Assembly: GCF_003574315.2 (NCBI RefSeq)
Contig: NZ_AP025739.1
Coordinates: 310,001 to 374,000 of the forward strand
DNA length: 64,000 nucleotides
Source of the DNA: Capsulimonas corticalis
GTDB taxonomy: Bacteria > Armatimonadota > Armatimonadia > Armatimonadales > Capsulimonadaceae
Reading direction: 5' to 3'
In this document: positions 6,796 through 13,056 of the stretch, one piece after another
How positions within the stretch are numbered: position 1 is the first letter of the stretch
Layout of the letters: every line of letters begins with the position of its first letter
The notes under the pieces: generated by a model
The model's database searches: none
Told to the model about the DNA's origin: nothing
The model's input: the letters and a program-made list of their open reading frames with translations, nothing else
Made by a program: the position numbers and the translations under genes

Positions 6796-6824
6796 TTGAC
6801 AGGAATACGGCGCCGTCGTATAAT
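6796..6824 (+). promoter_or_regulatory. Consensus sigma-70 promoter of the sugar ABC operon
   Basis: TTGACA (6796-6801) and TATAAT (6819-6824) with a 17-base spacer match the consensus fully. The start site would be near 6831, leaving a leader of about 100 bases before 6932. Confidence 0.8.
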
Positions 6825-6884
6825 GAGCGTGATATACCGTCAACAGTAGATCAATTTTACCAAAAACGGCGATTTCACGCTCAT
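6823..6884. promoter_or_regulatory. Inverted repeat flanking the operon start site (candidate operator pair)
   Basis: ATGAGCGTGA (6823-6832) and TCACGCTCAT (6875-6884) are perfect 10-bp reverse complements separated by 42 bases. The first overlaps the -10 and start site. Either operator half-sites or a long mRNA stem would fit. Confidence 0.45.
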
Positions 6885-9246: not shown

Positions 9247-10076
9247 ACACGGAAAGATCTGTACAGACGGGGCGCACGGCGCTCACCATCACGATGTTTC
9301 TCCTGGCGGCGATCGTGCTAACGCCGTTGGTCTGGCTGGTGGCGGCGACGCTGAAGTCCTCGGACGATATGTTCCACTACACGTTCTTCCCGCCGGTCAG
9401 CCACCTGACGCTTTCGGAGTATCACGACCTCTTCACGAAGTCGCCGTTCGCGCGCTATCTGGCCAACAGTGTCTTCGTGACCAGCGTGACGGTGATGGTG
9501 CAGTTGTTCTTTTCGTCGCTGGCCGGCTTCGCGCTCGCCAAGTACGAGTTCAAGGGCAAGAATATCATCGTGGCGATCATGCTCGCCACCCTGCTGCTGC
9601 CGGGACAACTGACGATGGCGCCGCTGTACGACCTGCTCTACCATATGAAGATGGTGGACAGCTACGCCGGCTTGATCGTGCCCGGCGCGGTGAGCGTCTT
9701 CGGGATCTTTTTGTTTCGGCAATCGATCCAGCAGGTCCCGGACGAGCTGTTGCAGGCGGCGCGGATCGACGGCTGCTCGGAGTTTCAAATCTACTGGGAT
9801 ATCGTGATGCCGGTCTCGCGCCCGATGATCGGCGCGTTCTGTCTGATCAGCTTTATGGGCGCCTGGAACAGCTTTTTGTGGCCGCAGATTATTCTCCACC
9901 ACGCCGAGCTGTTCACGCTGCCGATCGGCCTCAATCAATTGGTCAGCATTTACCAGACCCAGTACGGTATGCTGATGGCCGGCACGCTGCTGGGCGTGCT
10001 GCCGGTGGTGTTCCTGTTCGTGCTGCTCCAGAAAGAATTCGTCGCGGGATTGACGGCGGGCGCGGTCAAGGGGTAA
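9243..10076 (+). CDS. Sugar ABC transporter permease (MalG/MsmG type)
   Basis: The 277-residue protein has six predicted helices and the EAA motif LLQAARIDGCSEFQIYWDIVMPVSRP. The ATGA overlap with the previous gene (9243-9246) sets the start. No ATP-binding subunit follows, so a shared MsmK-type ATPase encoded elsewhere is presumably used, as is common for this transporter class. Its 3' end overlaps the convergent LacI gene by 11 bases. Confidence 0.94.
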   Translation: MNTERSVQTGRTALTITMFLLAAIVLTPLVWLVAATLKSSDDMFHYTFFPPVSHLTLSEYHDLFTKSPFARYLANSVFVTSVTVMVQLFFSSLAGFALAKYEFKGKNIIVAIMLATLLLPGQLTMAPLYDLLYHMKMVDSYAGLIVPGAVSVFGIFLFRQSIQQVPDELLQAARIDGCSEFQIYWDIVMPVSRPMIGAFCLISFMGAWNSFLWPQIILHHAELFTLPIGLNQLVSIYQTQYGMLMAGTLLGVLPVVFLFVLLQKEFVAGLTAGAVKG

Positions 10077-11430
10077 TCTCGCGCGAGGAAGACCGGACGA
10101 TGATCTCGGGCGTGACGGTGATTCGGCAATCCTCGACCGGCGCGCCTTCGATCATCGCGACCAGGCGCTCCACGGCGAGGATACCCATCTGGCGGAACGG
10201 CTGGTTGATTGTCGTCAATCCGCCTAAGATCCACTGGGCGTCCGGAGTGTCGTTGACGCCGGTGATGGAAACATCCTCAGGAACGCGCAGGCCGACGGCT
10301 TCAAAGGCTTTTCCCACCCCCATCCCCCAGCCGTCGTCGCCGCCGATCACCGCCGTGGGACGCTCGTCCAGCAAAAGCCACCGATCGACCATGGCTTGAA
10401 AGAAGCTTGGCTCCCGCACGCGATCCGGCGTCTGATCGTCGATCCCCTCCAATCGCGGGTCGTGCTCAATCCTCGCCTGCTCCAGCCCCTTGCGATATCC
10501 GTCCCTCCGGTCGAGAAAGTTCGAGTCGTGCAGGGATCCGATATAGGCGATGCGGCGATGCCCCTGCTGGACAAGCATCTCTACCATGCGCGCGACGCCG
10601 TTGATGTTATCAACATTCACGTAGCCGACACCGTCCGGCACATGGCGCGTCAGCAGCGCGACCACCGGCAGCCCGGCCTCGGCGACACGCTCCAGGGTGG
10701 CGTCGTGCAGCGGCGGCGCTACCCAAATGAGCCCGTCGATATGCCCGTCCAGATACTCCAGCGCCGAATGGCGGTCCGCATGCTGCGTCCAGCCGGTGTA
10801 AAGCAAGAGGTTATGATTGGCGACATCGCCCGCCTCGCTGATGCCGGCCAGCAGGTGCGGCGCCAGCGAGCCGCCGATATTCTGATCCAGGCTGCTCAGG
10901 CCGAAGATAAACACGCCGAGGATCCGGGTGCGCTGGCGGCGGATCGCCCGCACGAGCGCGCTGGGCGTGAAGTGCAGATCATCCATCGCCGTCTGGATCC
11001 GCGAGCGCGTCGACTCGCTCATCCGGCCCTTGTCGTTGAGAAAATTCGAGACCGTCGCGCGCGACACCTCGGCGCGGGCGGCGACGTCGTTAATCGTCGC
11101 GCGCCGCTTCCCAAGCGGGACGCTTGACGCCTTCCCGGAATGCGCCGGGTCCAGCTTCTCCGCGACCGACGCCGTGACCACTCCGTCGCGCTGGAGCCAG
11201 TTCCGCACGCTTTGCGAGTTGACGCCGAGGCGGCGCGCGATCTCCCCGGACTTCAGACCTTCGGCATGCAGCAGGACGGCCTGTTCGCGCACTTCCGGCG
11301 CATAGCCGCGCTTGCTCGGCTCCGGCGTATAGCGACGGCGGCAGGCGGAACACTTATAACGCTGGCTGCCGCCATGCATTCCCGCCTTGACCTGTCCCTC
11401 GGAGACCCCGCATTTCGGACACACAATCAT
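10066..11430 (-). CDS. LacI-family regulator with an N-terminal IS1-type zinc ribbon and transposase-like helix-turn-helix
   Basis: The 454-residue protein (start ATG at 11430; an in-frame ATG at 11475 would add 15 residues) has an unusual architecture. Residues 1-35 are a zinc ribbon, MIVCPKCG... QRYKCSACRRRYTPEP, like the InsA part of IS1 transposases. Residues 40-75 are a transposase-like helix-turn-helix (EIARRLGVNSQSVRNWLQRDG). After a linker comes the normal LacI helix-turn-helix (ATINDVAARAEVSRATVSNFLN, about 110-130), the hinge and a complete sugar-binding domain (GVFIFGLSS... VIGGDDGWGMGV... SITGVNDTPDAQWILGGLTTINQP). Two DNA-binding modules in one protein could read bipartite operators. 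Its position convergent to the sugar operon suggests control of that operon. Confidence 0.88.
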   Translation of the reverse strand: MIVCPKCGVSEGQVKAGMHGGSQRYKCSACRRRYTPEPSKRGYAPEVREQAVLLHAEGLKSGEIARRLGVNSQSVRNWLQRDGVVTASVAEKLDPAHSGKASSVPLGKRRATINDVAARAEVSRATVSNFLNDKGRMSESTRSRIQTAMDDLHFTPSALVRAIRRQRTRILGVFIFGLSSLDQNIGGSLAPHLLAGISEAGDVANHNLLLYTGWTQHADRHSALEYLDGHIDGLIWVAPPLHDATLERVAEAGLPVVALLTRHVPDGVGYVNVDNINGVARMVEMLVQQGHRRIAYIGSLHDSNFLDRRDGYRKGLEQARIEHDPRLEGIDDQTPDRVREPSFFQAMVDRWLLLDERPTAVIGGDDGWGMGVGKAFEAVGLRVPEDVSITGVNDTPDAQWILGGLTTINQPFRQMGILAVERLVAMIEGAPVEDCRITVTPEIIVRSSSREITP

Positions 11431-11798
11431 AACGATCTTAACTTTCGATACGGACGCTCGCCGTGTCCCAATCATTAGGCGATGACACAGGTATCTAATA
11501 TACCCCCTGCGCCTTCTGGAGACAAGACTTCCGCCAGCAAAGAAGCCCTGAGACCCAGCGATCCTTCGCTTTCGACAATGCCAACGCCGAATAAATCACC
11601 TATTGATATACTATCGTCATAAGTCAATAATTTCCAAATGTCGATATTCTGAAAATTGTTATTCAAAAGTACTTGACGCCGTTCCGCAGGCGTGATATAC
11701 TATTTTTGCTGATGAACTTGGTACATCAATGTGCCTAAAGCTCTTATCGTAATTCAAAACATCGCCTTCTTCATAAGACGATCCAGGAGACTGAACCC
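11431..11798. other. Intergenic region with divergent signals
   Basis: No convincing gene is present. A 63-codon minus-strand frame (11475-11666) has no recognisable features or family. The segment holds the start region of the zinc-ribbon LacI gene (TATATT-like -10 near 11501) and the promoter and leader of the prepilin-like gene at 11799. Confidence 0.5.
11673..11701 (+). promoter_or_regulatory. Promoter of the second prepilin-like gene
   Basis: TTGACG (11673-11678), 17 bases, TATACT (11696-11701). The predicted leader is about 90 bases. The -35 is the same as that of the first prepilin-like gene. Confidence 0.7.
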
Positions 11799-12578
11799 AT
11801 GTTACACACCGCGAAAGTCAAAGGCTTTACACTGATTGAATTGCTCGTTGTTATCGCGATTATCGCCATTCTTGCCGCGATTTTGTTCCCGGTTTTCGCC
11901 CAGGCCCGCGAAAAGGCGCGCCAGATCAGCTGCGCCAGCAACCAGCGGCAGACCGGCCTGGCCGTTCTGCAATATGTGCAGGACTATGACGAGAATTATC
12001 CGCTGGAGATCGCCGGCGTCAGCCCCAACGATTACGACTGGTCCAAGGCCGTTCAGCCGTATATCAAAAACGGGAATTCTCCGGTCGGCGCCTGGGGCGG
12101 CTCGACCAACACCGGCGTGTTCACCTGTCCCGACTTTCCGGAAGAAGCGGATGGCAAGTACGAATACGCGCAGTATCGTGTTTTGGAGGACGTCATTAGC
12201 TCCAGCGGTTCGCCTGTCTCGCTGAGCGCGATCATGAAGCCATCGTCCAAGATCATGGTCTTCGAAGGCAAGAACAACGGCAACTGCTGGGGCGGCCCGG
12301 CGGGAATCGGCTTCAATACCGATCAGTGGAACTGGGCAAGCAATGGACAAACTCCCCATGGAGCGCACACCGACCTCGCCGATCAGTCCCCGAAGGACAG
12401 CAATAATAGCGCCCAGGGAGCAGGCTGCTGGACCTGGCCGACCTCGTGGACTCCTGCGTACCGGCACACCAGCATGGGGAACTTCCTTTTCTGCGACGGC
12501 CATGTCAAAGCGATGAAGGTCGGCTCGGTCAGCTATGCGGAAAATATCGCGAACAAAGACCCCAGCATGATCAACTGA
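11799..12578 (+). CDS. Prepilin-type N-terminal cleavage/methylation protein (DUF1559-like), second copy
   Basis: The 259-residue protein starts [25 protein letters not shown], with the prepilin peptidase site after the Gly. It then shares [19 protein letters not shown] and [13 protein letters not shown] with the copy at 958-1839. The C-terminal signature is [23 protein letters not shown] precedes the ATG. A lipoprotein gene follows, as for the first copy. The body (residues 60-220) is Gly/Asn/Trp-rich and differs from its paralogue, so surface or ligand specificity probably differs. Assembly by a type IV pilus or type II-like machine would be needed; none is encoded here. Confidence 0.92.
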
Positions 12579-12610
12579 TCGCACCGCACTCGACTCATGA
12601 TCGCTGGATC

Positions 12611-12633
12611 GGCCGCCGCGATGCGCGGCGGCC
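12611..12633. terminator. GC-rich hairpin after the second prepilin-like gene
   Basis: GGCCGCCGCG (12611-12620) and CGCGGCGGCC (12624-12633) form a 10-bp stem with a 3-base loop. Only GTTTG follows, so termination may be partial, allowing some transcription into the lipoprotein gene. Confidence 0.5.
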
Positions 12634-12685
12634 GTTTGGCGCTTGATGTCCGATCTGGATTTGTTATCGAACAAGGAATAGTCGT

Positions 12686-12994
12686 TTGGAACTTCGATCA
12701 TTCGTCGCCGTTCGCGGGTCTCGCGCGAGCGCCCGCGCGCTGGCGATTGCCGTATGCGCAGTCGCCGCTTTCTCCATCGCCGGCTGCGGCAGTCGGCCGG
12801 CGGCGCCAGCGAACTCAGCGAAGCTCGATGCGCCGCCGCCTGGAGCTTTAAAGCCGATTGTCATCCCGCCGCCGAACCTGCCTGCGGATATGCCGGACGC
12901 TCAGAAGCAGCAAATCCTCGCCAATATGCAGCAGCAACAGGATCAGGCGAATGCGCAGCGGCAGGCGATGTTTAACAATTCGAACACAAAATAG
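12686..12994 (+). CDS. Small proline/glutamine-rich lipoprotein
   Basis: The 102-residue protein uses a TTG start at 12686, supported by AAGGA at 12673-12677. The signal peptide ends in lipobox SIAGC, so Cys34 is the lipidated residue. The mature part is Pro-rich (PPPGALKPIVIPPPNLP), then a Gln-rich helix (ILANMQQQQDQANAQRQAM). It resembles the lipoprotein at 680-919 in layout: lipobox, CGSR, short linker, Gln/Ala helix. Both follow a prepilin-like gene. Function unknown. Confidence 0.78.
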   Translation: MELRSFVAVRGSRASARALAIAVCAVAAFSIAGCGSRPAAPANSAKLDAPPPGALKPIVIPPPNLPADMPDAQKQQILANMQQQQDQANAQRQAMFNNSNTK

Positions 12995-13022
12995 CCGCCG
13001 CCGCGCTTGGCGACAACCACAT

Positions 13023-13056
13023 AAAAAACGCTTCTCAAACACGAGAAGCGTTTTTT
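13023..13056 (+). terminator. Intrinsic terminator after the lipoprotein gene
   Basis: AAAAAACGCTTCTC (13023-13036) pairs with GAGAAGCGTTTTTT (13043-13056) around a 6-base loop and ends in six T residues. Confidence 0.9.

Follow-up and report, generated by a model that had tools for sequence, protein, structure and literature searches.

An IS1-type DNA-binding module joined to LacI-type regulators of the Capsulimonadaceae: architecture, origin and candidate operators

How does a sugar regulator of the LacI type come to carry the DNA-binding end of a transposase, and what might such an additional domain do for it? The question is raised by a gene in a 64,000-nucleotide stretch of the Capsulimonas corticalis genome (NZ_AP025739.1, positions 310,001 to 374,000; hereafter the window), in which an earlier note had seen a LacI regulator fused to an IS1-type zinc ribbon and helix-turn-helix, and which it took to look like a transposase module captured by a regulator so that one protein has two DNA readers.

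Domain architecture of the window gene

The gene (Table 1) is open throughout and encodes its product in a single intact frame; it lies in a chromosomal setting, between carbohydrate genes and a DUF1559 gene. The N-terminus of the protein reads MIVCPKCG...CSAC, and GEIARRLGVNSQSVRNWL is contained in the same frame. The homolog P0003 likewise starts at an ATG, with MISCPHCG, which supports the start of the window gene; an in-frame ATG at 11475 would lengthen the protein by 15 residues. A frame error or a mis-called start is excluded by six homologs with the same domain order.

When the isolated N-terminus was searched, residues 4-84 matched the NCBIfam IS1-family transposase model NF033558 (E 5e-15, 56 bits), a score below the 100-bit cutoff for full transposases, as the protein has just the first 81 of the 199 model positions, while the IS1/IS1595 zinc domain NF050000 reached 27.1 bits on the module, just below its cutoff of 28. 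The module consists of a Cys4 zinc ribbon (C4, C7, C27 and C30) followed by a helix-turn-helix, and all four cysteines are invariant in the alignment of fusions and IS1 homologs. AlphaFold2 predicts it confidently as a two-strand ribbon with three helices (pLDDT ~80-93), followed by a disordered linker and then the LacI part; Foldseek found no PDB entry that matched the module with E <0.001. Both remaining domains are matched from end to end: PF00356 (LacI; positions 1-46 of 46, E 1.4e-15) lies internally rather than at the N-terminus, and PF13377 (Peripla_BP_3; positions 1-167 of 167, E 6.5e-31) covers residues 283-449. In most fusions the hinge leucine of LacI is replaced by isoleucine. No DDE catalytic (InsB) domain was matched in the window protein, and beyond positions 1-81 of the IS1 model the rest is LacI. 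The composition given in the earlier note, an IS1-type N-terminus ahead of an intact LacI helix-turn-helix and a complete sugar-binding domain, with the DDE part absent, is borne out by these separate searches, and the two DNA readers in one chain are supported as predicted readers.

Table 1. The fusion gene, its domains and the adjoining candidate regulatory features (positions in the window)
Feature	Position	Strand	Basis or remark
Fusion regulator gene	10066..11430	-	454 aa, ATG at 11430; six homologs with the same domain order
Periplasmic-binding-protein-like sugar sensor, ~residues 170-450	10081..10923	-	PF13377/PF00532
LacI helix-turn-helix, residues 112-157	10960..11097	-	PF00356, full profile
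Flexible linker, residues 85-108	11107..11178	-	pLDDT <50; dN/dS ~1 in P0004/L008
IS1/InsA-type module, residues 1-84	11179..11430	-	NCBIfam IS1 match; cysteines invariant; AlphaFold2
Sigma70-like promoter TTGACG-N17-TATACT of the divergent gene	11673..11701	+	Read from the sequence
Candidate operator TGATGAACTTGGTACATCA	11710..11728	+	One of four near-identical sites in 7.65 Mb; another beside P0003
DUF1559/prepilin-like gene, candidate target	11799..12578	+	PF07596, PF07963; behind the 11673..11701 promoter

Distribution, origin and selection

The search for other proteins with this domain order yielded a family of seven fusions in three genomes. Three further full-length members (L002, L003 and L004) are encoded in the window genome (7.65 Mb, one contig), two (L008 and L035) in a second Capsulimonas species, the MAG Capsulimonas sp. 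RYN_270, and one (L007) in another genus of the Capsulimonadaceae. A profile of the module run against 291 Armatimonadota genomes revealed no further long fusion frame in the other 288, and the other profile matches examined (L005, L010, L011, L025, L026, L053 and L058) resemble IS1-type transposases or their first frames. Coverage beyond the Armatimonadota comprised plasmid records, where six of the seven relatives of the module are annotated as IS1 family transposases, and one scan of named genomes; the latter was insensitive, its single match being a module-less ortholog in RYN_270, and it missed the fusions of that MAG. No paper describing an IS1-LacI fusion, or a LacI protein with an added DNA-binding domain, was found in the open-access subset of the literature.

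The tree of the LacI part places all seven fusions together with L024, which has no module, on a single branch (support 89/94, slightly short of the starred level), whose sister is the module-less L009 from another family of the same order. A clade of the fusions alone is rejected (p-AU 5e-5) because L024 groups with the window protein, and the history is best read as one gain and one loss, which suffice and make up the reading with the fewest events. The tree of the module unites the fusions in a single clade (83/81) inside a subgroup of Armatimonadota IS1 transposases, and a deletion common to all seven has removed from their zinc loop one residue that all 11 IS1 sequences possess. The window module is ~40-50% identical to the nearest Armatimonadota IS1 N-termini. 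Several independent captures are not needed, as both trees and the common deletion fit a single one; the comparison of sequences thus gives good support to a capture that probably took place once, from the IS1 subgroup, in an ancestor within the Capsulimonadaceae, and was followed by duplication. A complete element of the IS1 subgroup, a relative of the donor group of the module, is found in genome G014 (L057, positions 1457-2295); it is ~839 nt long, has terminal repeats GGGAGTACCTAACWTAGCRGTGGTA and is present in at least three near-identical copies.

The module-less locus of RYN_270 (L024/L065, the sequence of L024 being included in L065 with no mismatch) is syntenic with the window: homology runs up to 11109, where the LacI part starts, and resumes at 13042. 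The intervening segment, 11110-13041, is missing there, so that the locus has neither the module nor the DUF1559 gene, and a small gene is gone as well. L024 is best read as a natural module-less ortholog that arose through loss; its source MAG is 69% complete, and an assembly fault at that locus is therefore conceivable. The lack of module and segment in this ortholog would also suit the view that the window gene itself is an artefact, in which a LacI gene would have been joined to a piece of IS1 by a frame error, a wrong start or a misassembly. We consider this extremely improbable, and the homologs refute it: the fusion is in frame at seven loci in three genomes, purifying selection acts across the module, and the LacI tree puts the loss of the module inside the fusions.

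The strength of that selection was estimated from two pairs of fusions. For the orthologs P0004 and L008 the dN/dS values are 0.041 for the module, 1.01 for the linker, 0.109 for the LacI helix-turn-helix and 0.149 for the sensor, which makes the module the most constrained segment; the corresponding values for P0002 and L007 (0.163, 0.31, 0.337 and 0.252) are less reliable because the synonymous sites are far diverged. Since its dN/dS is the lowest, the module has most likely been retained for a function. With one origin, seven proteins and a module dN/dS of 0.04, the earlier proposal that a transposase DNA-binding module was captured by a LacI regulator stands, and the comparison supports an architecture that was inherited, selected and copied into several regulators.

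Candidate operators and proposed function

The promoters beside the fusion genes have a palindrome in common, TGATGWACnnnGTWCATCA, which is 19 nt long, hence odd, and is without a central CG. Because the motif was initially recognised by eye at four fusion loci, the sites there provide no independent support. Only four sites within one mismatch of TGATGAACTTGGTNCATCA occur in the 7.65-Mb window genome. Two of them precede DUF1559 genes adjoining P0001 and P0003; the remaining two, found afterwards, lie before a GH2 gene (1573095) and before the gene of a secreted-looking protein with no Pfam match (4790719). All four sit 7-12 nt downstream of the strong -10 boxes of sigma70-like promoters (TTGAC plus a TATAAT-like box), a position that suggests repression. 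Variant sites precede a GH44 gene near P0004 (7261177), which with GH2 belongs to the candidate targets, and the DUF1559 gene adjoining P0004 and its ortholog L008. In genome G004 the sole one-mismatch site lies ~170 nt upstream of the fusion gene and 11 nt downstream of the promoter (TTGACA-N18-TACACT) of a divergent ABC gene. The site at L035 agrees with the motif in its core only, and that of P0002 has no clear promoter adjacent.

Two observations on gene neighbourhoods may be added. The gene divergent from the G004 fusion (L099, 5033-7198), whose promoter bears the candidate operator, encodes an ABC exporter. In this lineage DUF1559/prepilin-like genes repeatedly adjoin regulators of the LacI type, both those that carry the IS1 module and those that do not (window 11799-12578; L097, L098, L100, L101, L104 and L105).

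A different target had been proposed in the earlier note, namely an inverted repeat at 6823-6884 with a spacing of 42 bases, which was taken as a possible bipartite site. The repeat itself is real, with 13-nt arms that are 92% complementary and can be extended through CCGT/ACGG, and it lies just downstream of the promoter (TTGACA-N17-TATAAT) of the sugar-transport operon; the spacing is 36 nt. It is better than chance, since 2000 shufflings of the intergenic sequence gave an equally good repeat 14 times, and as RNA it forms an unremarkable hairpin (z -1.3). The operator motif of the fusion family is absent from it and from the adjacent sugar operon, and no counterpart was found beside other fusions. 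Its role as a bipartite target is unsupported, the fusion loci sharing the compact palindrome elsewhere, and with no family motif it was rejected as a fusion operator; it may belong to another regulator. Elsewhere in the window, a near-perfect intergenic inverted repeat (TTACCGATAATT-AATTATCGGTAA, 1954-1996) lies upstream of a GH31 gene, the start codon of which follows the TATAAT box by only ~10 nt, so that the transcript may be nearly leaderless.

We favour, with some confidence, the reading that the fusions are sugar-responsive LacI-type repressors with an extra InsA-like grip on DNA, captured once in the Capsulimonadaceae. A dimer would bind the 19-nt candidate operator, which closely follows the -10 box, and keep the DUF1559 and glycoside hydrolase genes from being transcribed, and binding of a sugar to the C-terminal sensor would release the repression. 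The tethered zinc ribbon and helix-turn-helix would add contacts to DNA, perhaps to the outer TGAT/ATCA or non-specifically to flanking DNA, and so raise affinity or alter specificity. That the module itself touches DNA we infer from its kinship: in E. coli IS1 the zinc finger and helix-turn-helix of InsA are required for binding to the terminal repeats (PMC12428005).

What the module would read is a narrower matter. Sequence beyond the 19 nt shows no conservation within 25 nt on either side of eight aligned sites, and half-sites for the module in these flanks were rejected on this ground. In the same eight sites the outer TGAT is invariant; the LacI recognition residues differ between paralogs. 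The outer TGAT is accordingly named here as the leading candidate, though we think it less likely than not, and we give the same rather low probability to a division of labour in which the IS1 domain would read the outer TGAT/ATCA and the LacI domain the core, the capture having created a new, longer operator code that spread through duplicated sugar regulators.

The 19-nt operator could instead be read by the LacI part alone, the module having lost specific recognition and its ribbon and helix-turn-helix being kept for folding, dimer contacts, partner binding or non-specific affinity for DNA. This alternative, which we think possible but rather unlikely, agrees with the unconserved flanks and with the existence of the module-less ortholog L024 and sister L009, both presumably working. 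Among 1303 LacI regulators analysed, 1251 have motifs of even length, odd ones making up ~4%, and 1173 have operators with a central CG (PMC4052901), so that odd 19-nt palindromes are within the reach of LacI proteins. Near L009 lies a candidate CTTWACCnnnnnGGTWAAG, also of 19 nt and drawn from a single site. Together with the known odd-length motifs it implies that a LacI dimer alone could read 19 nt, and by itself it raises the prospect that the unusual operator length may be older than the capture. Against reading by LacI alone, the helix-turn-helix of the module ranks with the most strongly conserved parts, its recognition helix retains IS-like residues, and the sites near L104 and L105, two module-less LacI genes of this lineage, differ from those of the fusions in being CG-centred, 16 nt long and similar to GTTTAAnCGnTTAAAC.

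It is also conceivable that the module has kept its recognition of IS1-type terminal repeats. The fusions would then repress or restrain copies of IS1, as a defence or a form of taming, or connect IS ends with the control by sugar. In its natural role InsA is a repressor, acting on the IS1 promoter in E. coli (PMC12428005), related IS1 elements occur in the same order, and in G004 a fusion coexists with the remnant of a related IS1 (L061). We nevertheless rate the idea as quite improbable: the IS1 copy found in the window genome (L005) belongs to a distant subgroup in the module tree, and the candidate sites lie at DUF1559 and hydrolase promoters, not at IS copies. The terminal repeat of the G014 element shares just AGGTAC with one operator, an overlap estimated to be at about chance level, and an IS1 terminal repeat was rejected as the source of the operator for the same reason.

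The fusions among known systems

Should the preferred reading of an extra grip on DNA be true, the fusions would be a clean bacterial example of transposase capture, drawn from a small soil-dwelling family. The donor group, a module-less sister, a module-less ortholog and candidate operators are all available, and the effect of a captured domain on a working repressor is therefore directly testable.

With LacI sugar repressors the fusions share a complete helix-turn-helix, hinge region and sugar-binding domain, adjacent carbohydrate genes and candidate operators just past -10 boxes; they differ in the IS1 zinc ribbon and helix-turn-helix added N-terminally on a disordered linker, and in a candidate operator that is odd and not CG-centred (PMC4052901). 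With InsA and the N-terminus of InsAB' they share the order of Cys4 zinc ribbon and helix-turn-helix, and InsA alone is a repressor too, whereas the fusions are without the DDE part and the insB frame, are joined to LacI and have a zinc loop shorter by one residue.

Animal transcription factors are known to have arisen by transposase capture; in vertebrate host-transposase fusions the DNA-binding domain of a transposase was joined to a host regulatory protein and then selected. The TldR proteins derive from TnpB. They are RNA-guided repressors in which a transposon protein without catalysis serves bacterial gene control (PMC13418256), but there an entire inactivated RNA-guided nuclease was recruited, whereas the fusions took only a DNA-binding domain and placed it on another regulator. 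The case of the fusions matches the vertebrate one in outline, a transposase DNA-binding domain having been joined to a regulator and selected, yet it is bacterial, involves another transposase family and has a partner that already possessed a DNA-binding domain of its own.
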